Source: Methanomicrobium sp. W14
GTDB taxonomy: Archaea > Halobacteriota > Methanomicrobia > Methanomicrobiales > Methanomicrobiaceae
Assembly (NCBI RefSeq): GCF_017875315.1
Contig: NZ_JAGGMM010000001.1
Coordinates: 868,001-932,000, forward strand
DNA length: 64,000 nucleotides
Direction of reading: 5' to 3'
The translations under genes and the position numbers were made by a program. Below, piece by piece: positions 8,084-59,891 of this stretch (positions within the stretch are counted from its first letter, which is position 1; each line of letters begins with the position of its first letter). Under the pieces are notes generated by a model. It ran no database searches, was not told where the DNA came from, and saw nothing but the letters and a program-made list of their open reading frames with translations.

Positions 8084-8725
8084 TCAGACCTTTTTTAAAT
8101 CTACCTTTATATCCTTGGGCTCATCCCCGAGTGTAATCATTGCGCATCTGCCCTCGGAAGCGGGACCGGGGTTTACGACAATTGTTCCATCAACCTCTTT
8201 TATTCCGGACTGGTCGTGAATATGACCACAGCAGACAAGATCATATTTATTCATATGATCTTTTATCGACCTGCTCCCTACACTGTTTCCGCCTACATCA
8301 TCAAGAACCCCGTAAGGAGGAGCATGGCACAAGAGTATGTTGTGAACATTCTGTTTTGCCCTTGATTCAGCGTTTGTAAGAAGATTATCTATCTCTTTTT
8401 CATCTATCTCGAAAGGAGTGCAGAAAGGTGTCGGGTTAGCACCTCCTACCCCGACAAGGGTGACTTCCCCGATGTCAATTGAAGACCCGTGCAGGCATAC
8501 GGCTTCCGATTTTTCAATAGTGTCCAGGATTTCCTTTGGATCACAGTTGCCCGGAATCGCAAAACACGGCACGTTTATTTCGTCAAGCAGCGGAATGACA
8601 GTTTCACAGGGTCCCATTTCAGTTAAATCACCTGATATCAGGACCATATCCGGCCCCAAATCAAGAAATGAACCCATCTTGCCATACTGACCATGCAGGT
8701 CAGTGAGCAAAAGAACATTTATCAT
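8084..8725 (-). CDS. calcineurin-like metallophosphoesterase
   Basis: 213 aa. Metal-binding motifs of the family are visible in order: TDLHGQ (D-x-H), SGDLTEMG (GD), PGNCDP (GNCD), LLCHAPPYG (H) and CGHIHDQSG (GHxH). It resembles small archaeal phosphoesterases of the Icc/YfcE type; the substrate cannot be told from sequence. It begins 3 bases after the end of the upstream B12-binding radical SAM gene on the same strand, so the two are probably co-transcribed. Confidence 0.9.
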   Translation of the reverse strand: MINVLLLTDLHGQYGKMGSFLDLGPDMVLISGDLTEMGPCETVIPLLDEINVPCFAIPGNCDPKEILDTIEKSEAVCLHGSSIDIGEVTLVGVGGANPTPFCTPFEIDEKEIDNLLTNAESRAKQNVHNILLCHAPPYGVLDDVGGNSVGSRSIKDHMNKYDLVCCGHIHDQSGIKEVDGTIVVNPGPASEGRCAMITLGDEPKDIKVDLKKV

Positions 8726-8728
8726 TCA

Positions 8729-9847
8729 TTATTGATTTTTGCTCTTTCTAAAAAACCTTAACTCTGTAGTCATCCATGAACCGGTAACCCTACCTGACAA
8801 CGCAAGTTTACCTAGTACTTGATCCAGTTCAGGAATCAAAGCAGAAGGCTTTTTTTTGTAAAATGGCGTCCCGGGAAGGGGCATAAAATAATGTGCGTGA
8901 ATTTTTCCGTATTTTGCAACCCATTTCACCTGATCGACCGTCTCTTTCTGCTCCTCATCAGTCTCGCCGGGAAGTCCGACTATGTAGTCGACAACAGGAA
9001 CAAACCCGTTGTCCCTGCAGAGTTCAACTGCTCTTAAAACGTCGCCTGATGTATGCCCGCGGTTTATTCTTTTCAAAACCGAATCGCTTCCGGACTGTGC
9101 GCCAAAATGAATCTTGTCATTTCTGCAGAAATCATGAATAATCTCCAGTGACTCACGGGTTACAAACTCGGGCCTGACCTCGCTTGGAAACGTTCCCAAG
9201 TAGAGATTTTTATCTCTGTCAAAAGAGGAGAGAAGTTTTTTTAGTTTGCTGTAAACGGGTTTTTTCCCATCTGAACCGTATGAAAGTGCATTGGGGGTCA
9301 GAAATCTTATATCTTTATAATGCTTTGAAGACCTGACAATACCGTCTATCGAACGATGGCGCATGAAGCATCCGAAAAGTCTTGGAGTCTGGCAGTATGC
9401 ACAGCTAAAAGGGCACCCGCGCGAAATTTCAATATAACCCTTCACCTTTGAAAAAGGAGGGTATGCATCCAGAAGAACAGTCGTGTCATTCTTCTCATAC
9501 CTGCCCTTTGCCGCAACACCTTTAGGAAAAACGAATGATTTTTTTTCGATATACCTTATAAGTGCAGGAAGCGTGTATTCCCCTTCTCCTACAATAACAT
9601 AGTCTGCACAATTCAGCACTTCATCAGGCACTGCCGACGGGTGCGGTCCCCCTGCAACAGTTATGCAGTCCGCATTTTTCATCTCATCAGCGTATTGTTC
9701 TGCATTTATCGAATTAAGACTGTAAAGCGTTATATCCTTCTCCGGGCAGTCAACCGGATTTAAAATTATATTGTTTTTTTCACATGCGGAATAAAGGGCA
9801 GCGTATGAATTTCTTGCTGCCTTTATATAACGCCAGTTTACTTTCAT
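8729..9847 (-). CDS. B12-binding domain / radical SAM protein, MJ1487-type
   Basis: 372 aa. The N-terminal ~130 residues form a degenerate cobalamin-binding-like Rossmann domain (CITVAGGPHPSAVPDEVL, YVIVGEGEYTLP). The radical SAM core follows with the CxxxCxxC cluster motif in ISRGCPFSCAYCQTPR, and GETDEEQKETVDQV and HYFMPLPGTPFYKKKP near the end. The layout matches the methanogen-enriched family named for MJ1487 (TIGR04013 by recollection). The reaction is unknown. It is the first gene of a likely two-gene unit with the phosphoesterase; a second radical SAM gene lies just upstream. Confidence 0.85.
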   Translation of the reverse strand: MKVNWRYIKAARNSYAALYSACEKNNIILNPVDCPEKDITLYSLNSINAEQYADEMKNADCITVAGGPHPSAVPDEVLNCADYVIVGEGEYTLPALIRYIEKKSFVFPKGVAAKGRYEKNDTTVLLDAYPPFSKVKGYIEISRGCPFSCAYCQTPRLFGCFMRHRSIDGIVRSSKHYKDIRFLTPNALSYGSDGKKPVYSKLKKLLSSFDRDKNLYLGTFPSEVRPEFVTRESLEIIHDFCRNDKIHFGAQSGSDSVLKRINRGHTSGDVLRAVELCRDNGFVPVVDYIVGLPGETDEEQKETVDQVKWVAKYGKIHAHYFMPLPGTPFYKKKPSALIPELDQVLGKLALSGRVTGSWMTTELRFFRKSKNQ

Positions 9848-9872
9848 TGCAAAAGGAATTTAAACTGAAATA

Positions 9873-10997
9873 TTATGGTATTATCTCACATCCGTTGTAT
9901 TTTTCATGTTCAAACTGCCGAATCGATATGACACCTTTTTTAATCAGGCCCAAAACTTCCGGGACCTTTTTTTCTATAGAGTACCTGAGATTTCTCACGG
10001 TATCGCATACCATCTTTCTGCCGGTTTTTGGCCACGGGTTTATGATATTCGAATACAGGCACCTTCCACCGCAGAAGTTTCTTATATCACATTTCCGGCA
10101 GTCGCCCGAGATATCTATTTTTCTAAGTCTGCCGGGGTCGCCTGTTTTTATATTCCCACAGTAATAGTCCTTCATACCGGCCATACACGGGCACGGAGCT
10201 ATGTTTCCGTCCTGAAGAATACTATAGTTTGCAAAACCACTTCCGCACCTGAGAGGGGCATTTTTCATTCCAAAAAGCAGGTCCTGCATAGTATCAACAA
10301 ACGGATACCACATCATAACCCTTCCCTCTTCTCTCATAATTTTTATCCACAGGTCTGCAAGACGCCTTATTCCAGGGTTATACCCTGAATACAACCACTC
10401 ACTTATGCCATCTCTTAACTCAAAATCACTCCAGAAATTACAGTCCATTTGCCAGTGTACAGAATCAAAGGAAAAATCCGGGTTAGACGAGAGGTATTTT
10501 ACGGAATTGAATATATCGTTTTTTTCAGATACCGTCATTCTTGCGATAATTTCGTTTTCAAATCTGTTGTTTTTTATGTGCTTTAAATTCCTGATGACCC
10601 TGTCATATGTCCCTTTACCTCTTGATAAGTCGGTTGTCTGCCTGTCACCGTCTATCGACACGAATATGGAACAAAAACTGTTCACATACTCCGCAGGAAG
10701 TGAATCCAGAAGTGTCCCGTTTGTCTGGATGATATACTTCTTTACAGGTGCGTTGTCCATAATCTCGCAGATAAGATCCTTTTTCAAAAGGGGCTCCCCA
10801 CCGTAAAAAGTAAGCACTGCATCTTTGTCCTTTGACAGAAATTCATAGAGATGGTCTAACGAAAAACTCAGTTCGCAGGGAAGGTTACAGTCAAGGTCTA
10901 CAGTGTCAGGGGTTTCATCAGGAACAAAAAACATTTTTCCGCGGCAGTATTTGCAGCACAAATTACACTCGTCAGTCAGAAGAAGAAAATAATGCAT
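9873..10997 (-). CDS. radical SAM/SPASM protein, AF0577-type putative peptide-modifying enzyme
   Basis: 374 aa from ATG 10997; an in-frame extension to 11051 exists but the family-like start is MHYFLLLTDECNLCCKYCRG, which holds the CxxxCxxC cluster. The C-terminal SPASM-like region carries many cysteines binding auxiliary Fe-S clusters (GSGFANYSILQDGNIAPCPC, CRKCDIRNFCGGRCLYS). It matches my memory of the archaeal AF0577 family, annotated as putative peptide-modifying radical SAM enzymes. No obvious small substrate-peptide gene is visible next to it. Neighbours are another radical SAM gene downstream and the DUF126 gene upstream, same strand. Confidence 0.85.
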   Translation of the reverse strand: MHYFLLLTDECNLCCKYCRGKMFFVPDETPDTVDLDCNLPCELSFSLDHLYEFLSKDKDAVLTFYGGEPLLKKDLICEIMDNAPVKKYIIQTNGTLLDSLPAEYVNSFCSIFVSIDGDRQTTDLSRGKGTYDRVIRNLKHIKNNRFENEIIARMTVSEKNDIFNSVKYLSSNPDFSFDSVHWQMDCNFWSDFELRDGISEWLYSGYNPGIRRLADLWIKIMREEGRVMMWYPFVDTMQDLLFGMKNAPLRCGSGFANYSILQDGNIAPCPCMAGMKDYYCGNIKTGDPGRLRKIDISGDCRKCDIRNFCGGRCLYSNIINPWPKTGRKMVCDTVRNLRYSIEKKVPEVLGLIKKGVISIRQFEHEKYNGCEIIP

Positions 10998-11047
10998 TAA
11001 TGTTTGTCTCCAAAACCATTGTCTGAAAATTTGGAAATCCTTTAAAA

Positions 11048-11449
11048 TCACTCAATTTCAATACAGCCTGAGTCTCCGTCAACGCAGACTACTGCGCCGT
11101 CATCTACACTGTATATATCGTCTCTGGGCCTGTCAACCATCGGAATGTCGGCAATTATCGCACCAACCGCAATAATCGTCTCGGCTTCCATATTTATTAT
11201 TGCGCAGGGCGCTTTATTGTTCCTTTTAAGGGCATATATAATATATGAGCCAACAGTTGAACCCTTGCCGTGGGGAAACAAAAGAACCTTTCCCGATATC
11301 GACTGCCCGCACAGGGGACTGCTTTTTTCCAAAACAATACCGGTATGCGGATCAACACCGGATAAAAAGGATATTGGCTCGGTGCTTTTTAAAAGCAGGC
11401 CTTTTGCTCTTCCCTTTGAGATGCCTCTGCCCTGAATTGTAAAAGACAT
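11048..11449 (-). CDS. phosphomevalonate dehydratase small subunit (aconitase X swivel domain, DUF126)
   Basis: 133 aa from ATG 11449 (MSFTIQGRGISKGRAKG); upstream in-frame codons to 11500 overlap the PAN start and are hydrophobic read-through. The core shows the DUF126 swivel fold motifs: GVDPHTGIV, SGKVLLFPHGKGSTVGSYI and AIIADIPMVDRP. With a larger aconitase-X subunit this domain dehydrates (R)-5-phosphomevalonate to trans-anhydromevalonate-5-phosphate in the archaeal mevalonate pathway for isoprenoid lipids. The large subunit is not encoded in this window. It is divergent from the first PAN gene. Confidence 0.85.
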   Translation of the reverse strand: MSFTIQGRGISKGRAKGLLLKSTEPISFLSGVDPHTGIVLEKSSPLCGQSISGKVLLFPHGKGSTVGSYIIYALKRNNKAPCAIINMEAETIIAVGAIIADIPMVDRPRDDIYSVDDGAVVCVDGDSGCIEIE

Positions 11450-16864: not shown

Positions 16865-17434
16865 ATGATGCTCCTGGACGATGATGAAGGAAAGGCCGCC
16901 CTATGCCTTGCGAGAAAAACCATTGAACGCATGATAGCAGGAAAAGAGGCTGACTGCCCTCCACTATCTCCTATATTCAGCGAAAAACGCGGCGTATTCG
17001 TAACGCTTAATGAATTCGGTGATTTGAGAGGATGTATAGGATTTCCATATCCCGTGATGCCGCTTTCCGAGGCAATAAGCGACTCGGCGATATCGGCCGC
17101 GACCAAAGACCCGAGATTTATGCCGGTCAGGGCTGAAGAGCTAAAAAACATAACAATTGAAGTTACGGTTTTAACACCCCCTGCACCCCTTCTGTGCCCT
17201 GCAGAAAGAAGGGCTGGTAATATAGAAATCGGGCGTCACGGCCTTATTATTCAAGGGAGAGGCAATTCAGGTCTTCTTCTTCCCCAGGTCGCAACAGATT
17301 ACAACTGGAGCCCGGAAGAATTTCTTGATAATACATGCCTTAAGGCAGGTCTTTACAGGGACTGCTGGAAAGACGATAACTATGAACTGCTCACATTCGA
17401 AGGGCAGATTTTTTCAGAAAAGAGGACTACATGA
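16865..17434 (+). CDS. AMMECR1-domain protein (AmmeMemoRadiSam system protein A)
   Basis: 189 aa. The family signature [10 protein letters not shown] is present at about residues 58-67, preceded by [13 protein letters not shown] and followed by [16 protein letters not shown] and EVTVLTPP, spanning the AMMECR1 fold. The domain is conserved in archaea and eukaryotes, often found with MEMO and a radical SAM protein; neither partner is adjacent here. Biochemical role unknown. Two ATGs at 16865 and 16868 are both possible. It overlaps the archaeosine gene tgtA by 4 bases (ATGA), so it is the first gene of that operon. Confidence 0.92.
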
Positions 17435-18882
17435 GCATTAGTTTTGAAGTAACCAGAAAGGACATAATGGGAAGGCTTGGTAAACTCAGAGTCGGTGAAA
17501 AGACAGTTAAGACACCGCTTCTCCTTCCGGTAATAAACCCTAATATACAACTGATTAAACCTGAGGAAATGGAAAAACTTGGCGTTGAGGCACTTATTAC
17601 AAACGCCTACATCTTCAGCAAAAGCGATGAATTCAGGGAGAAAGCCCTGAAAGAGGGGCTCCACAAAGTACTTGGCTTTAATGGTGTTATCATGACAGAC
17701 TCCGGAGCATTTCAGCATTCCGTCTACGGTGACATCGATTTTTCAAATACTGACACGGTAAAGTTCCAGCGCGCAATAGGAAGCGACATTATTGTCCCGA
17801 TGGACATTGCAACATCCCCCGACAAGACACACGAAGAGGCAGAGGAAGAGCTTTCCATTACAATGGAACGAATTAAAGAAGCACGCGGAATCATAGACGA
17901 CGGCCACCTCTGCGCACCTGTACAGGGAGGAATCTATACAGACTTAAGGAAAAGTGCAGGAAGAGAAGTAAGAGAGCTTGATTTTTCGTTCTGTCCAATA
18001 GGTGCCGTTGTCCCGCTTATGGAGAACTACCGCTACAAGGAGCTTGTCCAGGTTGTAATGGCGGCAAAATCAGAGCTTTCACCGTCATCATGCATACACC
18101 TTTTCGGGGCTGGTCATCCTTCAATGTTTGCGCTTGCCACAGCTATGGGATGCGATGTCTTCGATTCCGCTGCATATGCCCTTTATGCAAGAGAAGACCG
18201 GTACATGACGCCGCATGGGAGCTACAAATTAAATGAATTAAATGAACTGCCCTGCGCATGCCACGTGTGCAGGACGCACAGCGCCGGGGAGCTTAAGAAA
18301 TCGCCTGAAAAAGAGAGGCTTCTTGCATATCACAACCTGTACGTGACTCTTGCAGAGATATCAAGGATAAGACAATCAATCCTTGACGGGACACTCTGGG
18401 AGCTTGTTGACGAAAGGTGCAGAAACCACCCACGCCTTCTTGAAGGCTACCGTGAACTTCTGAAATACAAAGACCAGCTCGAAAAATCTGACAGGATAAC
18501 AAAAAGGCGCTTCTTCTACAGAGGAAGCGAAAGCTGCATGAGAACCGAGGTCAGCAGGTATCATGAAATGGTAAAACGGCTTCCTGCCGGAAAAAAAGTG
18601 CTTATATCCTTTGAAGGCAAAAACCGCGGTGGTTATGACACTGTTTTCCTGTTCAAACCGCCTTTCGGCCCTTACCTTCCGGAACTTAAAGAGACTTTCC
18701 CGATAGGCCAGAGTGAGACTCCAGAACCCGACCGGGATATGATTAAATCAGGATGCATAGGAATTGCAAACCTTATTGCAGAAAACCCGGATTCGTCCTT
18801 TTTTATTGCATGCAGCGACGAAGAGAGAGAAATAGTCTCTGAAGAACTTAAAGAAATAAAATCAGGTTATTCCTATGTTTGA
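17431..18882 (+). CDS. tgtA: tRNA-guanine(15) transglycosylase, archaeosine pathway
   Basis: 483 aa. TgtA swaps guanine-15 in the tRNA D-loop for preQ0. The catalytic (beta/alpha)8 domain shows the nucleophile region [19 protein letters not shown], and [18 protein letters not shown] with [14 protein letters not shown]; zinc cysteines are in [14 protein letters not shown]. The C-terminus stops after a C1-like domain and lacks the PUA domain of long TgtA proteins (~580 aa in Pyrococcus). The downstream ArcS has a PUA-like end. Start overlaps AMMECR1 by 4 bases; its end overlaps ArcS by 8. Confidence 0.95.
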
Positions 18883-20503
18883 AGCACTTAAAAGAGACGG
18901 CCGCGCCCGTACAGGAATTTTCACGCCGGAGTCAGGGGACATTATAGAAACACCTTCTGCTGTTGACACTAAAAAAATATTCACTGACCTTTCCGGGCAC
19001 GATTACTCAAATGTTCCGTTGCTTGCTCCACAGAAGTTTGCCGGCAGGTACATTCCCGAATATCAGGGGATTACATACATAGCCCCCGAATCGGGGAAAA
19101 ATGGAAGCTCCGGGGACTGTCTTATAGCCGCAAACTGGCATACGATTCTTGACAACCCGAAGTATTACGTGGAAATCCTGAAAAAGCTGAAAGAAAGAAA
19201 TCCTTCCGATACAGCATGGTATGCACCCGCATCGGCCCTTCCGTCAAACGTTGCATCACTCATATACTCTGGTTTTGATATCTTCGACTACAGGGCCGTC
19301 GACCTGAAAACCGCACAGAACCTTTTCTGCACGCAGGACGGGGAATTTCCGGCTGAAGAATGGTTTGACAAAGGTCTTTGCAGGTGTCCTGGGTGCCTGA
19401 AGAAAAGCCTTTTTGAGCACAACAGAAACGCACTGGACTGCGAAATTCAGACAGTCAGAAGTTTTCTGAAAGACTACCACATAAGAGAACTTTTCGAGCG
19501 CAGGTGCAGGAATTCTGCGTCCCAGGTTGCAATACTGCGTCTTCTCGACCAGTCATACGAATTTTCGGAAAGTTTCACACCAGTAGTAAGGGAAAACAGG
19601 CTGTACGCAAACTCCGGTGAATCCATAAAAAGGCCTGAGGTTAGGAGATTTATAGACAGGGTGACTGAAAGGTTTATTCCTTCAAGGACCGATGTCGCGG
19701 TCCTGATTCCCTGCTCTGCGAGAAAACCGTATTCGGCATCGCAAAGCCACATGAAGTTCAAGTCCGCCATTCAGAACAGGGCACATGAGATTATAATTAC
19801 GTCCCCGCTGGGAATCGTCCCAAGAGAACTTGAACGCATTTACCCTGCCGGACATTACGATGTCCCGGTAACCGGTTACTGGGACGGAGAGGAGAAAAAA
19901 ATAATCACCGATTCCATTGCACGGTATTTCAAAAAGAACAATTACGAAAAGGTATTCGTTCACCTTGACGGGGACGCTCTGGAAATAGCTCTTGCGGCGC
20001 TTGACATTGCAGGTATGGATTACGAGTGCTGTGCATCGGAAAAACTCACGTCAGCTGATTCTCTTAAAAAACTTGAAAATGCCCTCCAAAATTACAGGAA
20101 ATCGGCTCCTGACATGGTCAGGGGAACACTCTCCTGGCAGTTTGGGACTGACGTTGACACCTCAAAACTTCATGTCAAAGGCAAATTCATGAAAGAAAAA
20201 GTCTTTTTGGGAAAACAGCAGGCATTCTCGGCCGACGGCAGGACAGGACTTTTAAGGCCAACATTTGACGGCTGGAATATCATAGGAGACAAGTACAGGG
20301 TAAATATAGAAAGTTTCGTTCCCCAGGGTGATATCCTTGCACCTGGCGTTGTCGACTGCGACCCAGACATACGTTCCGGTGACGAAGTCTTTGTATCCGG
20401 AGAGAAAGCCGTTGCAACCGGAAGAGCCGTTATGGGTGCAAAGGAGATGTGCTCATCATCAAGGGGAGTAGCAGTCCGTGTGCGTAAAGTAAAGAAGTTG
20501 TAA
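18875..20503 (+). CDS. arcS: archaeosine synthase ArcS (TgtA2)
   Basis: 542 aa. ArcS acts on preQ0-15 in tRNA to make the archaeosine precursor. The N-terminal half is a TGT-like domain that has lost catalytic residues. The conserved ArcS motif [14 protein letters not shown] is at about residues 286-299. The C-terminal ~80 residues form a PUA-like RNA-binding domain ([30 protein letters not shown]). It begins with ATG inside the tgtA end (8-base overlap), implying coupled translation. It completes the two-enzyme archaeosine unit; a RaSEA partner is not visible here. Confidence 0.94.
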
Positions 20504-24160: not shown

Positions 24161-25333
24161 TCACTCAAACAGCGGATCTATTTCTTCGTCGTCAAACATT
24201 GTTACGCGACGTTCTTTGGATTTTATGACATCATCTTTAGTTTCTTTTGCAATCTCCAGAAGCTCCCTTATACGTGGTGCATCCCCGATCGTTGCAAGAA
24301 CTACAACCGCTGCTATTTTGGAACTTTCTGTCGGGTAATCTCCACCTCTTACCTCAACACCGGCAATGTTTTCTTCAACCCATGATTTGGATTTTTCAAC
24401 ACCCTTTCTGTCCATCTCATCAGGAGGTCCTGCTATTAATACCAGTGCACGCTCAGCAGTTGTATAATCACACGGCAGAGTCAGACGCCCAAGCATTGCA
24501 CGCCTGACAAGACCTATAACCTTTGCAGATTTATCCTCTCCAGTCAGAACTTCTTCTGCAGAATCCTTCTTTTTTACAGAAAGACCCCCCAGGAATCCTC
24601 TCTTCTGCTTAACGCTCTTAGTGACTTTTTCGCTGATTGCATATCCTACCGAGCTCACACCGCCGCCGCGCAGGGTATTGATAATCTCACTGGAATCCAC
24701 AACCATTTCTCCGACACCTGTTCTTCCGACTTCACCTGCGCGGAAAAGAACACCGAAACGCCGGACTATTTCATCATTAAGGCGTTCATATGCGGACCTT
24801 ACGCTTTCTCCCTCATTTTTCCAAGCACTGTTATCAAAAATAAATGTATTATCCGCCTCATTTACAAGGGTTGAAAGACTTCTTGCAGCATTATATGAAT
24901 AAAGTCTGCCCTCTTCAGGAGCAGGCAGTATACCCAATGCGTACACAGGTTCACGGTAGATACGCTTAAGATGACGGCACAGAACCGGTGATCCTCCGGA
25001 ACCTGTTCCACCTCCAAGACCGGCGCAAACTACAAAAGCATCAATATCATGAGTTCCTCTTGTATCAATCGTATTGATGATGCTGTCAATCTCATCTGCC
25101 GTGATTTTGGCTCCGGTTACATTGTCTGTACCTACACCATGACCTTTAACAACAGTCTGGCCAATAAGAATGCGATCACGCAATTCTATATTTCTAAGAC
25201 CCATAAGATCGGTTCTTGCAGTATTCACTGCAATTCCTCTAAAGCTTCGGACCGGGGCTCTCTTATCCTGTTCCATGAACATATCTACTATTTTGCCCCC
25301 GGCCTGGCCAAATCCAATGAAAAAGACTCTCAT
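24161..25333 (-). CDS. CetZ-family tubulin/FtsZ-like GTPase
   Basis: 390 aa. It opens RVFFIGFGQAGGKIVDMFM, carries the tubulin GTP-binding loop GLGGGTGSGGSPV, and shows VVDSSEIINTLRGGG, the CetZ-like T7 region, rather than the NxDFADV of FtsZ. CetZ proteins polymerise with GTP and in haloarchaea control cell shape and motility rather than division. A true FtsZ is encoded at 46.8-47.9 kb. TATA-like TTTTTATATCC near 25387-25395 fits its promoter. The exported protein follows after 12 bases, an association with cell-surface structure. Confidence 0.9.
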   Translation of the reverse strand: MRVFFIGFGQAGGKIVDMFMEQDKRAPVRSFRGIAVNTARTDLMGLRNIELRDRILIGQTVVKGHGVGTDNVTGAKITADEIDSIINTIDTRGTHDIDAFVVCAGLGGGTGSGGSPVLCRHLKRIYREPVYALGILPAPEEGRLYSYNAARSLSTLVNEADNTFIFDNSAWKNEGESVRSAYERLNDEIVRRFGVLFRAGEVGRTGVGEMVVDSSEIINTLRGGGVSSVGYAISEKVTKSVKQKRGFLGGLSVKKKDSAEEVLTGEDKSAKVIGLVRRAMLGRLTLPCDYTTAERALVLIAGPPDEMDRKGVEKSKSWVEENIAGVEVRGGDYPTESSKIAAVVVLATIGDAPRIRELLEIAKETKDDVIKSKERRVTMFDDEEIDPLFE

Positions 25334-32511: not shown

Positions 32512-33978
32512 TTATTTCGACTGATTAAAACCTTTCACAAGACCCATAAAAAATACAATCACCGGCATAATTTCAAGACGTCCTATCCACATTGCAAATA
32601 TAAACACAACCTTACTGTAAGGGCTCATCTCCGGAGAGACAAAACCTGTACTTATACCGTTGTTGCACGTTGCCGATACTATTTCAAAAACGATGTTGCT
32701 TGTGTCAACAGAAGGTGAGTCAAAGTGCATGACAAGAATAGAGGAGATAAATATTACAAGAAGATACAGAATTATGATAAGCATATTTTTGGAAACTTCC
32801 ATTTCCGCTTCAAACTTTGGTATTACTTTCCCTCCATACCTGAACGGGACAATCACTTTTCCGCTTACAAAAGACCGTTTAAACCACCAGACAATTCCCC
32901 TGTACGCAAGAGCTGCACGTGAAAGCTTAATTCCTCCGGCAGTACTTCCGGATGAACCCCCAATCAGCATTAGAAGAATCAAAAAAAGAACAGTCACAGG
33001 TGCCCAGATGTTAGGCGATGATATCTGGAACCCTGTACTAGTAACACCTGCAACCGCCATGAATATCCCCTGTCTCATCGCAACGGCAAAGTCAAGATTG
33101 TTATAAAATAACAGATCAAGAGTTATTACAATAAAACCCGCCAGTATCAGCAAAAACAGAAGATGCGCCTGTTCATCGTGGAAAAAACTGACTTTTTTCT
33201 TGTGGTACATCAGGTAATAAATCTTAAAAGGAAGCGCTCCCGCTATCATTACCGGAATAATAAGCATTTCCAGAAGAGGATTGTTGTAATACAGTATTCC
33301 TGCTGAATGAACTGAAAAACCACCTGTTGCAATCGCAACCATAGCAATATTTACCGCGTCCCATATCGAAACTCCCGATATAAGAATCAGGAGAACTGAA
33401 AGAGCAGTAAGCATCATGTAAATCTTCCACATCTGAAGACCCTGCTGCACGACACTAGGCATAAAGGCCTCACTTCTTCCCTCTGAGCGGTAGAACCTGG
33501 AAGGATTAAGACCGGTCTTTGAAAGCATTAAAACAGTGAATGCAACAATCCCAAGACCTCCCAGCCACTGCATAAGGGATCTCCAGAAAAGAAGTGTATG
33601 GGGAAATGAATCGACATTGGGAATCATCGTAAGACCGGTATCAGTCCACCCCGACATAGCTTCAAACAAAGCGTCAAGGTAAGGCATTCCCATACCTATC
33701 CAAAAAGGCACAGCCCCAACAAATGCACATATAAGCCAGATTAGTGCAACTGAGAACAATGCCTGACTAAGTTTGGCTTCTTTTTTGTTCTCCGGAAGCA
33801 TCAGGAAAAAAATTCCCAACAGGTAGAGTATAAGGGGAACAAGCGCCATAGGAAGGATCATGTCCCATTCCCTATAAATCAGAGCCACTATAAGGGGGAC
33901 GCATGTACCCAGACTTATAAAGCGAAGGACATTACCCAAGTCATCGGCTATAACCAAAAACTGATCTATCCTGTTCAT
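32512..33978 (-). CDS. trkH: TrkH-family potassium transporter
   Basis: 488 aa with about ten membrane segments. The four pore loops that form the K+ selectivity filter are visible: SGWTDTGLTM, AIATGGFSVHSAG, VTSTGFQISSPN and ATCNNGISTGF. The protein is the membrane channel subunit for K+ uptake. No separate TrkA gating gene is next to it, so the regulatory subunit must be elsewhere. The start is ATG 33978; a 174-base upstream gap holds a TATA-like region and separates it from the superoxide reductase gene on the same strand. Confidence 0.94.
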   Translation of the reverse strand: MNRIDQFLVIADDLGNVLRFISLGTCVPLIVALIYREWDMILPMALVPLILYLLGIFFLMLPENKKEAKLSQALFSVALIWLICAFVGAVPFWIGMGMPYLDALFEAMSGWTDTGLTMIPNVDSFPHTLLFWRSLMQWLGGLGIVAFTVLMLSKTGLNPSRFYRSEGRSEAFMPSVVQQGLQMWKIYMMLTALSVLLILISGVSIWDAVNIAMVAIATGGFSVHSAGILYYNNPLLEMLIIPVMIAGALPFKIYYLMYHKKKVSFFHDEQAHLLFLLILAGFIVITLDLLFYNNLDFAVAMRQGIFMAVAGVTSTGFQISSPNIWAPVTVLFLILLMLIGGSSGSTAGGIKLSRAALAYRGIVWWFKRSFVSGKVIVPFRYGGKVIPKFEAEMEVSKNMLIIILYLLVIFISSILVMHFDSPSVDTSNIVFEIVSATCNNGISTGFVSPEMSPYSKVVFIFAMWIGRLEIMPVIVFFMGLVKGFNQSK

Positions 33979-46785: not shown

Positions 46786-47910
46786 TCACCTGAGAAAGTC
46801 TATATCATATTCGCGCTCGGGGGATTTATTACTATTATTGAGATCCTCACTTCTGCCGTATATCTGCGGGGAGCTGACACCGGTCACAACAAGCATTGTG
46901 CGCATGCGGTGCTGCATATCCGGGTCGACCTGCGCACCCCAGATTATGCGTGCATCCGGGTCTATACGTTCATAAACTTCCTGCACAACGCCTTCGGCTT
47001 CCTCCATTGTCATATCAGGACCGCCGACGACGTTTACAAGAGCGGCTGTGGCATTTGAGATATCAACATCAAGAAGAGGCGACCTGAGAGCCTTTTTAAC
47101 CGAATCCGCGGCTTTGTCTTCGCTGTCACTCTCACCCATTCCAATCATTGCAACACCTCCGCGCTCCATTACCGTACGAACATCAGCAAAATCAAGGTTT
47201 ACAAGTCCGGGCTGGGTGATAAGTTCGGTTATCCCTTTTACTGCCCTCATTAAGACTTCATCAGAAACCTTGAAAGCTGCATGAAGCGGAAGCCTCGGGA
47301 CGACCTCCAGAAGCCTGTCGTTAGGAACCACAATTACTGTGTCCGCGACGTCACGCAGGCGTTCAAGACCGGCTTCTGCGTTTTCAAGTCTTATTGCGCC
47401 TTCCGCCCTGAACGGGAGAGTGACAATTGCAATCGTAAGAGCTCCCTGGTCACGTGCAGCTTTGGCAATCACAGGTGCAGACCCCGTACCTGTTCCTCCT
47501 CCGAGTCCTGCCGTGATAAAGACCATATCACTGTTCGCAAGCTTTGAACGAATTTCCTCCTCATTTTCAAGTGCAGCCTCTTCGCCGACCTGCGGGACAG
47601 AACCTGCGCCAAAACCTTTCGTTCGCTGGCGGCCGATAAGAATCCTGTAATCAGCCTTCGTTCTTATAAGGTGCTGGGCATCGGTGTTAACCACAAAAAG
47701 TTTTGCACCTTCGATACCCTCCTCGGCCATGCGGGTAACAGTATTCGATCCGCCGCCGCCGCATCCCACAACGGATATTTCTGTACGAAGCGACTTAAGA
47801 ATCTCCTCTAATTCCTCGTCATTTTCATGCGAGCTGTCGACTATCATTTCTGTGTCGGCCGCTTCGGCGTTTGCCCTGCTTAGCGCCTCTTCAACAATTG
47901 ACTTCATCAT
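46786..47910 (-). CDS. ftsZ: cell-division GTPase FtsZ
   Basis: 374 aa. Archaeal FtsZ with an acidic N-terminal extension, GTP-binding loop [13 protein letters not shown], nucleotide-binding [12 protein letters not shown], and the T7 catalytic loop [11 protein letters not shown]. It assembles the division ring. ATGs at 47910 and 47907 are both possible. Its start overlaps the end of dtdA by 4 bases. The C-terminus (ERYDIDFL-type tail) is the usual partner-binding tail site for SepF, which is not in this window. Confidence 0.96.
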
Positions 47911-55732: not shown

Positions 55733-57391
55733 TTAATCAAAAGTGATAAAATCTGAATAAAAATGCCTGCCTGAGACCTTTTCAAACTCATTTAATGAGT
55801 TAAACGGGCGTTTAAGGATTATATCTGCCGCGGTTTTTTTGCCGATTCCCGGAAGTTTTTTCAGGGTGTTAAAAGATGCTTTATTGACATTAAACGGTTT
55901 TTCAAAACCTGTAACAGACCTGTACCCCCAGTCCGCAACAAAGAAATCACCGACGCTTCCTTTTATAAGTCTGTAAGGAACCCCGATAAGTATCGGGTAC
56001 GAGCCAAGCTGGCGGGCAAACGACATGTCACCCGAAACTTCGACAACTGCATCCAAAAGAACTGTCCCCTGTGGGAATACTTTTTTCAGCATCGGAAGAT
56101 CAAAATCTCTTCTGACAGTCTCCTTGAATGCCTTAAAACTTTCATCAAATTTTCCCAAGGTATTTTCAGTATAGGCCTTCGTCCCTTCAAAAGGCATAAC
56201 CTGTCTTATATTGACACGCCTTACAAGAAGACCGGACTTTAAAAGAGATGACAAAAAGGACTCATTCAGAAAATAAGTATTCTTCGTCTCGCCACACAGG
56301 CCCATAACAAAGTTAAGGCCCGGAAGAAGGTGAGGCACCCCGTTTTTATCACGCTTTGCTCCTATGTCATTTACAATCCGTACTGCACGCAACACGTCTT
56401 CAGGCATTGCCTTGAGATTGTTGCACCGGATTACTTCAGGGTCGGCCGATTCCATCCCGAAAGCCGCGGTGTCTCCTGCCGTATGCCACTTAACTATACT
56501 TTCCAGGGCCTCTTTTGACTCCACAGGATGCCTTGTTATGGTCCCGGGATTTATATTGTCGATATGAAGAGTCTTAAGGCCAAAAGCGGCATCTCTTATT
56601 CCCCTTAAAAGAGAGTCTATCTTTTCAGGAACAGGAACGGGAAACTCCTCCCCAGAGGACGCCTGGTAAGTCAGAAGGTCAGGCTGTCTTCCGAGCCTGA
56701 AGTGAAGCGCTCCTGCGTTATACAGGGCTGACACTTCTCCAAATACCCCTTTCTCAGACCTGTAACATGGCGTCCCGTAGAGATATTCAGTGCAGAAAGA
56801 GCACCCGCCACAGGCGGCACGAGAACAGCCTCTTGCCGTCTCAAGCTCACAGATAACATGTGGATATGCAGGGTGCTGTTTTATTACGCAGCTTCCGGCA
56901 GCACTTCTCCTGTCTATATCGGGATAAGAAAAAACGCCATGAGGCTTTCCTCCTTTCAATACCGAGTCAAGTGCTCCTGAAATCTCTCCTTCCAGTATAT
57001 AATCATATACAGAAGAATAGCTCTCTTTTTCGGCAGGAGTTCCTCCCCCCGAAGAACTTCCGAACAGAACAGGGCCGCCAAGGCATTTTACAGGATTTTT
57101 CAGGCTTGTCCCAATCCTAAATATATCCTTTGAATTTGCAGGAGTCCCCCCCAGATATTTTCCGGGTACAGTTATTCCCGCTATGAACACGAAAAGGTCT
57201 GCCTTTTCCATATCCAGAAGAAGGGAAGGATTTTTCCTCAGTTCATCTATTGTGGTATAGGATACTGAAAAACCGTTTTCGATGCAGGCACCGGCACAGT
57301 ACCTCACATAAGGTGAGATATAAGGAGAAACACCGAGACACGCAGGTTCGTCCACATATCCGTCAAGGATAAACGCCTTTTCAGATGTCAT
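55733..57391 (-). CDS. radical SAM protein with C-terminal helix-hairpin-helix (COG1031-like)
   Basis: 552 aa. N-terminal domain of unknown type (~1-180, FVFIAGITVPGKYLGG), then a radical SAM core with the cysteine motif spread in ARGCSRAACGGCSFCTEYLY, then a C-terminal helix-hairpin-helix DNA/RNA-binding domain (ASFNTLKKLPGIGKKTAADI). This arrangement matches the archaeal family I remember as COG1031. Reaction unknown. It starts 11 bases before the end of the MptE-like gene, completing an overlapping trio. Confidence 0.88.
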   Translation of the reverse strand: MTSEKAFILDGYVDEPACLGVSPYISPYVRYCAGACIENGFSVSYTTIDELRKNPSLLLDMEKADLFVFIAGITVPGKYLGGTPANSKDIFRIGTSLKNPVKCLGGPVLFGSSSGGGTPAEKESYSSVYDYILEGEISGALDSVLKGGKPHGVFSYPDIDRRSAAGSCVIKQHPAYPHVICELETARGCSRAACGGCSFCTEYLYGTPCYRSEKGVFGEVSALYNAGALHFRLGRQPDLLTYQASSGEEFPVPVPEKIDSLLRGIRDAAFGLKTLHIDNINPGTITRHPVESKEALESIVKWHTAGDTAAFGMESADPEVIRCNNLKAMPEDVLRAVRIVNDIGAKRDKNGVPHLLPGLNFVMGLCGETKNTYFLNESFLSSLLKSGLLVRRVNIRQVMPFEGTKAYTENTLGKFDESFKAFKETVRRDFDLPMLKKVFPQGTVLLDAVVEVSGDMSFARQLGSYPILIGVPYRLIKGSVGDFFVADWGYRSVTGFEKPFNVNKASFNTLKKLPGIGKKTAADIILKRPFNSLNEFEKVSGRHFYSDFITFD

Positions 57392-58001
57392 ATCCGATAT
57401 TAGAAAGAAGTTTTCGGGCTATCAAAAGCTTTCCGCGCTTTACAGGGTCTACCGACCTGTCATCAAGGTCAAAACCTGCAAGATTCACTTCACCGGCACC
57501 CATCTCAAGAGCGGTAAAAACAGCCCTGTCACCGTCAGTGAAGCCTCCGAAGTTGTATACGCAGTCAAATGGCCTGCTCTGCGTCGTAAGTACAACAGGG
57601 CCATTAAACCTTGGAATCCAGTTTTTTAAAAGAGGGATGTTGTCGCCGTGGGCGTGGACAACCATAATCGTCCCCTTAAGACTCATCTCAACGAAAGTTT
57701 CCTCGCACCCGTCAAGGTCTGTTGAGACGATATCAGGTCTGATACCGGCGCGGTACAGAAAATCCGCTGCAGCATCTGCGGCAAAGACAACACCGTCTAT
57801 TTTTTTGATATCCTTCTTTAACGAGGGCGCGTTTCCGCAGACTGTCACCTTTTTTCCAAGGCAGGCAGACCTCAGAAATTCAATATCATCCTTATCAGTC
57901 AGGGAGCGTGCAGTTTCCGCCGCACGCTCGTCAGACTCCCTGTCAAAACCGAAATAGTCAAGGATCCGCAGATAGTGCGGTTCCCACTCATCAAACTTCA
58001 T
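57381..58001 (-). CDS. mptE: MptE-like 6-hydroxymethyl-dihydropterin pyrophosphokinase (DUF115)
   Basis: 206 aa from ATG 58001 (MKFDEWEPHYLRILDYFGFD); an in-frame start at 58037 would run further into the DHH gene. The DUF115 core has KKVTVCGNAPSLKKDIKKID and RPDIVSTDLDGCEETFVEMS. MptE attaches pyrophosphate to hydroxymethyl-dihydropterin, the pterin branch of tetrahydromethanopterin synthesis, a methanogen one-carbon carrier. Overlaps both neighbours by 11 bases. Confidence 0.85.
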   Translation of the reverse strand: MKFDEWEPHYLRILDYFGFDRESDERAAETARSLTDKDDIEFLRSACLGKKVTVCGNAPSLKKDIKKIDGVVFAADAAADFLYRAGIRPDIVSTDLDGCEETFVEMSLKGTIMVVHAHGDNIPLLKNWIPRFNGPVVLTTQSRPFDCVYNFGGFTDGDRAVFTALEMGAGEVNLAGFDLDDRSVDPVKRGKLLIARKLLSNIGYDI

Positions 58002-59469
58002 TCTGCTCTTCTTTTCCGAGACCAACAATGTCTGCAAAACGCTTCAAAAGGGGATCAATTATAAGAGAAAGAAGTTCTTCCTTGTTTTTTACAAGGGAAA
58101 AAGAGTTCAGGGGTATTCGCGCCGCCGCCATAGTCGCATGACCGCCGGCCTCGCCGACACCCTCAAATGCCTCTTTCATGACATTTCCGACATGCATCCT
58201 GATATCTTTGTTCCGTGCGGATATGGTTATATAATCATCGCCTATGCCGTATGCAACCGATGTGTTTATTCCCTCGAGCTGGATTAAAAGGTCCGCCGCC
58301 TGCGGGACGACATCACGGTTTTTGATATAGCCGACGTTCGTGAAAAGATACCCGTTCTGGACCTTTCTGTTCTTTATCGCGTCGCCAAGTGCATCCACGG
58401 TCTCAATCGACATTGAAGGCGAGGTGATTTTGTCAAGAAGTTCGCTGTCGGTTAAAGGCAAAAGAAATGCGGCGTAATTCAGATCCTGCGGGGTGATATT
58501 TCTTGAAAAGTCCCTGGTATCGGCACGGATACCATATAAAAGAGCTGTTGCAACCTTCTGGTCAACGGAAATATCAAGCTCCTGGAGATACTGCGTCATA
58601 ATGCTTGCAGTTGCACCTACACCGGGGCGTATATCAACAAAGTGAACTGACCTCACCTCGTCATCCGGCATTTTGTGGTGATCGATTATTATGTCAACGT
58701 TCCTGTCAGGAGAAAGAAAATTGTTTGAACCCGGTGAAGAAGAGTCAACAAGCGCCAGATAATTGCATTCCCCAAGCATTTCCTCGCATGTCTCCAGAGT
58801 TATTTTCTGAAGCTGAATATCAAGAAGAGTTACGAAAGCACGGTTTTCCTGATGACCTATTTTGCCGTCATACAGAATTTTGCATTCCAGTTTCCCGCCG
58901 CTTGCCTCTTTCCCCAGTGCACACAAAGCCATTGCGCTTGATATCGCGTCAGGGTCTGGATTGGTGTGCAGGACAATACCCAGAACTCCCTCGCACTCGG
59001 AAAGGAAATGATACAGTTTTCTCGCAAGTCTTGAGGAATGAAGCCTCCTTATATGGTGAACTGCAGTTTTGGCAAAAACTTCCTGCGGATAAAGAGCGAT
59101 GTCGGCCCCGGCCTGTTCGAGAAGCGAAAGACTCAGCCTGTCGATAGCACGTGCAATAACATACGCAGAAGGATATATATCCTTAACTTTCCTTACAGCC
59201 TCCAGATTCGCGTTTTTGTCGCTTGACAGGACAAAAACCACTTCAGGGACGGGAAGTCCCTCAAAAAGGGCGGGATCAGTTATATCCTTGGTTATTGCCT
59301 CATAATTCTGGTCTCTTAAATCCTCGACCCTTTTCTCATCATGATCAACAACAACCACGTGCTCGGTGTCACGCACAAGCTCTTCCACTACATTGTAACC
59401 GATGCTCCCGCACCCTAGCACCATGTATTTTACCCTATCAGAATTCCCGTTCGGCAGGCTTTCAGGCAT
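57991..59469 (-). CDS. RCK_N-DHH phosphoesterase fusion
   Basis: 492 aa. The N-terminal ~140 residues are a TrkA-N/RCK_N nucleotide-binding domain (VLGCGSIGYNVVEELVRDTE with GxGxxG and the acidic VVDHDEKRV). A DHH/DHHA1 phosphoesterase follows: HTNPDPDAISSAMAL, LVDSSSPG, IIDHHKMP and a C-terminal GEAGGHATMAAARI. DHH enzymes of this kind often cleave cyclic di-AMP or nanoRNA. The fused RCK_N suggests control by NAD, ATP or a cyclic dinucleotide. It heads an overlapping trio with the MptE-like and radical SAM genes. Confidence 0.9.
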   Translation of the reverse strand: MPESLPNGNSDRVKYMVLGCGSIGYNVVEELVRDTEHVVVVDHDEKRVEDLRDQNYEAITKDITDPALFEGLPVPEVVFVLSSDKNANLEAVRKVKDIYPSAYVIARAIDRLSLSLLEQAGADIALYPQEVFAKTAVHHIRRLHSSRLARKLYHFLSECEGVLGIVLHTNPDPDAISSAMALCALGKEASGGKLECKILYDGKIGHQENRAFVTLLDIQLQKITLETCEEMLGECNYLALVDSSSPGSNNFLSPDRNVDIIIDHHKMPDDEVRSVHFVDIRPGVGATASIMTQYLQELDISVDQKVATALLYGIRADTRDFSRNITPQDLNYAAFLLPLTDSELLDKITSPSMSIETVDALGDAIKNRKVQNGYLFTNVGYIKNRDVVPQAADLLIQLEGINTSVAYGIGDDYITISARNKDIRMHVGNVMKEAFEGVGEAGGHATMAAARIPLNSFSLVKNKEELLSLIIDPLLKRFADIVGLGKEEQNEV

Positions 59470-59558
59470 GTATTATTAAATTGTCTCTCAATGGTATTTA
59501 GACAATTTCCGAAATGTTTATTAAAACACAGGTCTCACTTATGTAAGCACAAAAACGG

Positions 59559-59632
59559 GGGCCTGTAGCTTAGTCAGGCAGAGCGACGGACTCTTAATCC
59601 GTAGGCCAGGGGTTCAAATCCCTTCAGGCCCG
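59559..59632 (+). tRNA. tRNA-Lys (anticodon CUU)
   Basis: 74 nt. The acceptor stem GGGCCTG pairs with CAGGCCC, the anticodon stem ACGGA pairs with TCCGT around the loop CTCTTAA (anticodon CTT), and the T arm AGGGG-TTCAAAT-CCCTT is standard. No CCA is encoded, no intron is seen. A TATA-like TTTATTAA at about 59517-59525 is upstream. Confidence 0.95.
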
Positions 59633-59891
59633 CTGTGCTTTTTTGGGTTTTTTTAAATATTGCTATAATTCAGTCCGGATTTTGAGATCAAAAAGATATT
59701 TTCAGTTGAAAATAAGTAATTTCATCCTGCGGCAAATCATTTTATCAGATTTTTACATCATACAGACTGCTATTTAAAAACGCCACAAAAAAGTAATTGA
59801 GACTCTTTTTATTAACGGGATCTGCACAAACTCCAAAAAAGAGGGACAAATTGTTTAAAGAGAGATAAACGGTCTGAATAACCGGTATATT
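59633..59891. other. gap between tRNA-Lys and ABC ATPase gene
   Basis: 259 AT-rich bases. T-tracts at about 59638-59654 right after the tRNA look like its terminator. The remainder has no convincing frame or structured element that I can see, and is the 3' side of the minus-strand ATPase gene. Confidence 0.5.
59637..59654 (+). terminator. T-tract terminator after tRNA-Lys
   Basis: TTTTTT-GGG-TTTTTTT starts five bases after the tRNA discriminator base. Archaeal RNA polymerase stops at such U-runs. Confidence 0.6.

Follow-up and report, generated by a model that had tools for sequence, protein, structure and literature searches.

What could a putative cyclic di-AMP (c-di-AMP) phosphodiesterase, a pterin-synthesis enzyme and a radical-SAM protein have in common, that their genes should overlap one another? 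The question is raised by a 64,000-nucleotide stretch of the Methanomicrobium sp. W14 genome (contig NZ_JAGGMM010000001.1, positions 868,001 to 932,000), which is referred to here as the window and numbered from its first base. A preliminary description of this DNA had noted a trio of RCK_N-DHH, MptE-like and radical-SAM-HhH genes, and we recover it as three open reading frames (ORFs) whose domains agree with that account:

57991 to 59469, minus strand: RCK_N-DHH-DHHA1 protein, 492 amino acids, a predicted archaeal c-di-AMP (or pApA) phosphodiesterase
57381 to 58001, minus strand: mptE, 206 amino acids, 6-hydroxymethyl-7,8-dihydropterin pyrophosphokinase
55733 to 57391, minus strand: radical-SAM protein with C-terminal HhH, 552 amino acids, a predicted radical-SAM enzyme of methylthiotransferase-like fold
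57991 to 58001, minus strand: 11-base overlap of the DHH stop region and the mptE start
57381 to 57391, minus strand: 11-base overlap of the mptE stop region and the radical-SAM start

We consider it probable, with some reservation, that this is a three-gene operon of Methanomicrobiales in which a c-di-AMP phosphodiesterase is co-expressed with mptE and with a radical-SAM enzyme of separate duty; the common ground of the three genes would be expression and not one metabolic pathway. The first product would be an archaeal GdpP-type phosphodiesterase whose DHH-DHHA1 unit hydrolyses c-di-AMP, giving pApA and/or AMP, and is controlled by an N-terminal RCK_N domain that may bind an adenine nucleotide or NAD(H), and it would partner with a diadenylate cyclase (DAC) encoded elsewhere in the genome. 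The second product would be an ordinary MptE of pterin and methanopterin synthesis, and the third a radical-SAM enzyme with one cluster, whose core resembles that of methylthiotransferases and is followed by an HhH tail, its target probably being a nucleic acid or ribonucleoprotein. The argument is built on three computational observations, namely the domains of the proteins, the conservation of gene order, and the joint loss of the DHH gene and DAC. All conclusions cover the phylum of the window, Halobacteriota.

The proposal that the first protein is a c-di-AMP phosphodiesterase, already made in the preliminary description, is well supported at the sequence level. Its Pfam domains are TrkA_N at residues 15-128 (E 1.7e-22), DHH at 165-314 (PF01368, E 7e-15) and DHHA1 at 374-470 (PF02272, E 1.5e-10), the last two both exceeding the curated cut-off. 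The best sequence match among solved structures is titled ‘Cyclic-di-AMP phosphodiesterase’ (9n0l, E 6.6e-12), with GdpP (5xsi) next and inorganic pyrophosphatases coming after the c-di-AMP phosphodiesterases; profile matches to 4ls9 and NrnA 9wbu have E values of 5e-6 to 9e-6. GdpP 5xsi is also the best fold match of the predicted model (predicted local distance difference test score, pLDDT, 85.4; predicted template modelling score, pTM, 0.61), with a Z score of 25.1 over 314 aligned positions within residues 143-485. The root-mean-square deviation (rmsd) of this match is 6.5, and values of 5 to 8 among the fold matches would reflect domain placement. In an alignment of 65 rows, H168, D172, D174, D242, D263-H264-H265, D317 and G442-G443-H444 are invariant (the motifs HxxxDxD, D, DHH, D and GGH). 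GdpP-like catalysis joined to an RCK_N domain is a variation on a known kind of enzyme.

The further suggestion of a K+-channel-type sensor domain is not upheld as it stands. The Rossmann half, RCK_N, is present, with the GxGxxG glycines G19, G21 and G24 and also D42 invariant in the 65-row alignment, but Pfam gives no match to an RCK_C (TrkA_C) half at E ≤ 0.001. Because only the RCK_N half with its nucleotide-binding glycines is found, an adenine nucleotide or NAD(H) seems a more likely ligand than K+. The trkH gene mentioned in the same connection does lie in the window, at 32512-33978, about 22 kb from the trio. In G284 and other large-genome families a single genome can have as many as six matches to the DHH protein, some of them without RCK_N, against mostly one elsewhere (here and below, G numbers denote genomes, L numbers loci, f numbers families and g numbers genera).

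A second line of evidence comes from DAC (PF02457), which was sought together with the DHH gene (counted at E ≤ 1e-40) in a phylum sample of 148 genomes. All 41 Methanomicrobiales genomes searched for DAC contain it, as do 134 of the 148; the DHH gene is found in 133 of the 148. Both occur in 129 genomes and neither in 10, with DHH only in 4 and DAC only in 5; put differently, the DHH gene is also absent from 10 of the 14 DAC-less genomes. The Fisher p value for this association is 2.6e-9; it becomes 4.8e-4 when family f22 is excluded and 8e-5 when genera are counted, none of these being corrected for kinship. DAC of the W14 genome itself is encoded away from the trio (G000:C1:1079093). Searching the 15 genomes without a DHH gene at a looser threshold gave no full-length DHH match; one of them, G031, probably has the gene, since it shows a DHH fragment at a contig edge.

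The association was seen again in fresh genomes. DAC was searched for in 293 genomes of at least 95% completeness, of which 22 were without it; 20 of these were listed, and 11 of the 20 were new. Among the DAC-less genomes listed, the DHH gene is absent (E ≤ 1e-20) from 10 of the 11 new ones, the sole exception being G230, an assembly of 570 contigs with 9% contamination. It is present in all 32 new DAC-bearing genomes, which were hand-picked from many families. Within genus g25 the two genes agree in 6/6 genomes, with both in two and neither in four.

Turning to gene order, match coordinates place the DHH, mptE and radical-SAM genes side by side, in the same order and on the same strand, in 25/25 Methanomicrobiales genomes, which are the order subset of the phylum sample with the W14 genome included. 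The trio also stands in order on one strand in 71 of 80 named loci, and these are 71 of the 71 that can be evaluated. L088, L096 and L121 are truncated upstream and are not among them, and the trio is not shown in six loci titled Methanosarcinaceae, Methanosarcinales or Methanomethylicota, three of which (L128, L129 and L133) have too little upstream DNA to judge. Of the 71 trio loci, 70 carry Methanomicrobiales names and L098 is titled ‘Euryarchaeota archaeon’. In the sampled phylum genomes the arrangement is not kept outside Methanomicrobiales, and the gene-order survey that had been called for therefore upholds conservation within the order and not beyond it.

The two overlaps are exactly 11 bases long, as had been reported, only with an mptE start at ATG 58001; the mechanical mptE ORF starts with TTG at 58037. 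We favour the ATG because 22 of the 25 same-order matches start at residue 1 of that reading. Across the 71 named loci, the DHH and mptE genes are spaced by −11 in 37 cases and by −4 in 16, and the mptE and radical-SAM genes by −11 in 52 cases and by −4 in 12, all spacings being taken from the nearest plausible start codon, so that individual values may be off. Both junctions overlap in 54/71 loci, with −11 at both in 32/71, and gaps reach 290 bases in the loci that do not overlap at both. The 11-base overlap is a recurrent value, not a fixed one. These short overlaps suggest that translation of the three genes may be coupled, and the stretch before the DHH gene, bounded by a divergent tRNA gene, could hold the one promoter from which they would be co-transcribed:

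59470 to 59558, minus strand: intergenic stretch, presumed single promoter of the trio, with a TATA-like TCTAAATACC at about 59493-59502, by eye
59559 to 59633, plus strand: tRNA-Lys (CTT), divergent neighbour in the flank outside the operon

In an upstream alignment, read by eye and with no statistics, many relatives have a CTTAATA-like box some 30 bases ahead of the DHH-gene ATG. A perfect 9-base inverted repeat, AAATTGTCT/AGACAATTT with a 13-base loop, lies before the DHH start at window 59478-59508; considered as an element, it was rejected because it is absent from L174 and L175 of the same genus, and it would be due to chance or specific to the strain.

Several observations weigh against a c-di-AMP phosphodiesterase operon. 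The tRNA-Lys(CTT) gene is divergent and upstream in 48/48 loci scanned (of the 80 named loci). The DHH gene occurs without DAC in G024, G037, G093 and G147, of which G024 is a single contig and 99% complete, and DAC occurs without the DHH gene in G006, G031, G047, G051 and G054, of which G006 is a single contig and 97% complete. Only two or three independent events account for the joint losses (one in f22, one within part of g25, and one in G133, which is 89% complete), and these losses are also compatible with a pApA hydrolase. DHH domains occur in three other ORFs of the W14 genome. In the fold comparison the first nanoRNase row has a Z score of 22.2, and NrnA-type rows lie about 3 Z below GdpP. 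Finally, passages of PMC8268124 describe a DHH-DHHA1 enzyme of Pyrococcus, also archaeal, that cleaves pAp and not c-di-AMP.

These points feed two of the alternatives, which overlap with the operon reading and with one another, so that their probabilities do not sum to one. An explanation we take seriously without favouring it is that the three genes are frozen neighbours: an ancient rearrangement would have been fixed in the ancestor of Methanomicrobiales and kept by the overlaps and by general synteny, with no functional link, which is compatible with the DHH protein being a c-di-AMP phosphodiesterase. As tRNA-Lys is as constant as the trio, constancy within one order is weak evidence for shared function. 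Genes for an M50 protease, PRC, Thg1 and an ileS-like protein follow downstream in many loci (M50 at ≤1 kb in 39/55, ileS-like on the same side in 36/47), the phylogenetic profiles of the three genes differ, and mptE adjoins a large class I tRNA synthetase, read from its size and domains as isoleucyl-tRNA synthetase (IleRS), in 8 of 23 mptE loci outside the order. However, the trio is unbroken in 71/71 loci, whereas the flank is broken at M50 in 16/55 by a script rule that scored L112 as a miss though the gene is apparently adjacent, and mptE has c-di-AMP genes as its neighbours in two further families, described below. The trio is steadier than its downstream flank and not steadier than tRNA-Lys; the better argument for coupling is the overlapping reading frames, not constancy. 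As a separate observation on this flank, Methanocorpusculum petauri has five tandem tRNA-Lys(CTT) genes (L110:5290-5780), where relatives have one and L107 has two.

Less probable, and in our view unlikely, is that c-di-AMP is opened by another enzyme and that the DHH enzyme acts at a later step or on short RNA, as an NrnA/Pde2-type pApA hydrolase, a nanoRNase or a pAp phosphatase. The NrnA, Pde2 and DhhP rows of the fold comparison have Z scores of 20-22, an enzyme acting on pApA would be lost along with DAC too, and the Pyrococcus pApase, inactive on c-di-AMP, offers a precedent. Set against this, sequence searches rank c-di-AMP phosphodiesterases first, and a general nanoRNase or pAp duty would not predict joint loss with DAC.

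The second protein raises fewer questions. Its assignment to pterin synthesis in the preliminary description is borne out by a match to MptE-like PF01973 (E 2.1e-26) and by the solved 6-hydroxymethyl-7,8-dihydropterin pyrophosphokinase 8sd5, which matches residues 2-179 (E 7.4e-28) and has the stretches DLDG, HAHGDN and NFGGFTDGDR in common with it. Because it is the single match in its own genome and MptE is present in 147/148 genomes, we take it from its sequence to be an ordinary orthologue, the usual pterin enzyme. A literature search on MptE with methanopterin returned nothing.

The company that mptE keeps is less ordinary. In family f10, where the DHH gene is found in 17 of 19 genomes, it is head-to-head with mptE in 14/17 and on a different contig in 3/17; direct adjacency was confirmed in four f10 loci (L137-L140). 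In the two sampled genomes of family f18, the single DAC match directly follows mptE on the same strand (L135:7334-8612, and L136). This DAC is short (210-211 amino acids) and keeps DGA, with RHAAA where RHR would be expected. As mptE is thus joined to the DHH gene in Methanomicrobiales, head-to-head with it in f10 and placed before the only DAC in f18, c-di-AMP turnover and the synthesis of pterin, a C1 carrier, might be functionally wired together in Halobacteriota: c-di-AMP or its products might tune MptE expression or activity, or the AMP output of MptE might feed back on the RCK_N-gated phosphodiesterase. We regard such wiring as a speculative and rather improbable extension.

The same adjacencies, in the order and in f10, could be read to place the DHH enzyme within pterin synthesis itself, for example at a step ahead of MptE, as a phosphatase or phosphodiesterase for dihydroneopterin phosphates in a pterin operon; phosphomonoesters are cleavable by DHH enzymes. 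We judge this very unlikely. In the first sample, MptE is retained in 10/10 of the double losses of DAC and DHH, including 6/6 of family f22, which speaks against the DHH enzyme taking part in pterin synthesis, and the DHH gene tracks DAC instead.

Some further observations were made around mptE. In f22 loci (L193-L196 and L144), mptE overlaps or abuts a gene for a class II synthetase, which in L144 is an aspartate--tRNA(Asn) ligase by NCBIfam; in L195 one frame of 667 amino acids spans the MptE and class II synthetase domains and is a candidate fusion. In G110, a genome without RCK_N-DHH and DAC, an ORF of DHH-DHHA2 (pyrophosphatase-type) lies about 1 kb from mptE (L192:4607-5551).

The third protein of the trio (P0003) has no match to Pfam Radical_SAM (PF04055) at E ≤ 0.001; we identify it as a radical-SAM protein from its three invariant cysteines, its profile match with solved enzymes of this superfamily and its predicted fold. 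C189, C197 and C200 are present in 50/50 sequences, some genes being counted twice, with the spacing CX7CX2C here; the additional C194 of the window protein is not conserved. The predicted model (pLDDT 92.4) matches RimO (4jc0, Z 26.1), MiaB (7mjz, Z 25.0) and MgmA (9ccb, Z 24.5) over residues 1-501, in agreement with Foldseek, and the profile match to MgmA has an E value of 1.7e-6. The HhH tail (HHH_3 at 498-541) is outside the range covered by these fold matches. We rejected a methylthiotransferase: the fold fits, but the three conserved N-domain cysteines for a second cluster are absent, C18 being the only N-domain cysteine conserved at 90% (45/50 sequences). Nor is there a Pfam B12-binding match at E ≤ 0.001.

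Within this one orthologous family the cluster motif spans CX3CX2C to CX7CX2C. With duplicates removed, the first two cysteines are separated by seven residues in the order (25/25) and in f15 and f24, by five in f8 (6/6), by four in f9, f10 and f14 (10/10), and by three in f13, f17, f21 and f23 (4/4); in the named set the separation is seven in 73/78 and five in 5/78. The L037 gene, at least, has no HhH, and the match ranges indicate the same for the two other g24 genomes. Outside the order, we see no radical-SAM-mptE operon. The candidate, family f14, was rejected since the two genes are 1.2-1.7 kb apart with two opposite-strand ORFs between them in G029 and G039, separated by 10 kb in G009, and likewise not together in G019. 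Neighbours elsewhere (IlvD, a nucleotidyltransferase, an LPG-synthase-like protein and Cdc6) gave no functional lead for the radical-SAM gene, and a literature search by the family names COG1031 and MJ1487 found nothing on the protein. The second of these names does not apply to it, as NCBIfam assigns MJ1487 to a different radical-SAM family, TIGR04013.

The distribution of the radical-SAM gene also bears on the idea, put forward in the preliminary description, that all three genes serve an unknown pathway in common. We do not uphold it. MptE is in nearly every genome and the DHH gene tracks DAC, while the radical-SAM gene is found in 103/148 genomes and absent from 45. Its association with the DHH gene (p 3.8e-4) and with DAC (p 0.011) in the 148 genomes vanishes without f22 (p 0.115 and 0.68), where that between DHH and DAC stays at 4.8e-4. 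To the narrower proposal that the radical-SAM protein acts in methanopterin synthesis, the same pathway as MptE, we give hardly any credence: the proposal has in its favour that the gene adjoins mptE in the order and that the protein's profile remotely matches MgmA, which is a radical-SAM methylase of methanogens, but 44 of the 45 genomes without the gene have MptE, and the gene is present in the large-genome families f13, f17, f21 and f23, which appear to be haloarchaea, where a passage of PMC8305020 has the carrier assumed to be tetrahydrofolate.

If the operon is as we read it, its main interest lies in c-di-AMP breakdown. RCK_N-DHH proteins have reportedly been proposed in earlier reviews as archaeal c-di-AMP phosphodiesterases. 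Through its joint loss with DAC, the RCK_N-DHH-DHHA1 family stands out across the phylum as a concrete candidate for this activity in archaea, and the question of archaeal c-di-AMP degradation becomes testable with one purified protein. For Haloferax, a passage of PMC8305020 (2021) states that the c-di-AMP-degrading enzyme had not been identified, although there were proposed candidates. Should the association between mptE and c-di-AMP genes in three families prove functional, it would tie a second messenger to C1-carrier supply. The radical-SAM orthologues, for their part, provide a natural series of cluster motifs whose spacing runs from CX3 to CX7.

Elsewhere in the window, genes for a phosphoesterase, a B12/radical-SAM protein (TIGR04013) and a radical-SAM/SPASM protein (TIGR04084) stand side by side on the minus strand at 8084-11051; AMMECR1, tRNA-guanine transglycosylase and archaeosine synthase ArcS genes overlap in a row at 16865-20503; and CetZ-type and FtsZ-type tubulin homologues are found in one window, at 24161-25333 and 46786-47910.

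Compared with known systems, the radical-SAM protein has the architecture of RimO/MiaB and MgmA, in which a Rossmann-like domain at the N terminus is followed by a radical-SAM barrel and, at the C-terminal end, by a small beta domain; the alignment extends to about residue 499. It is unlike them in that its family is without the second-cluster cysteine set, has an added HhH tail and varies in motif spacing. MptE matches 8sd5 throughout the aligned residues and motif stretches, and only its neighbourhood differs, with a c-di-AMP enzyme in place of a tRNA synthetase. The sensor half of the DHH protein has the Rossmann domain, GxGxxG and D42 in common with the RCK_N of KtrA/TrkA and with 3llv (‘exopolyphosphatase-related protein’, Archaeoglobus fulgidus), which judging by its name and match is probably the same domain of an orthologue. 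Unlike KtrA/TrkA, the window protein is without an RCK_C half, the part of KtrA that binds c-di-AMP, and its RCK_N is fused to an enzyme and does not serve a transporter. The catalytic half resembles GdpP, the c-di-AMP phosphodiesterase of Firmicutes, in its DHH-DHHA1 unit, in giving the best sequence and fold match, in its conserved catalytic residues and in occurring together with DAC. GdpP carries membrane helices, PAS and degenerate GGDEF parts, none of which are among the Pfam matches of the window protein; what the window protein has, unlike GdpP, is its N-terminal RCK_N domain.

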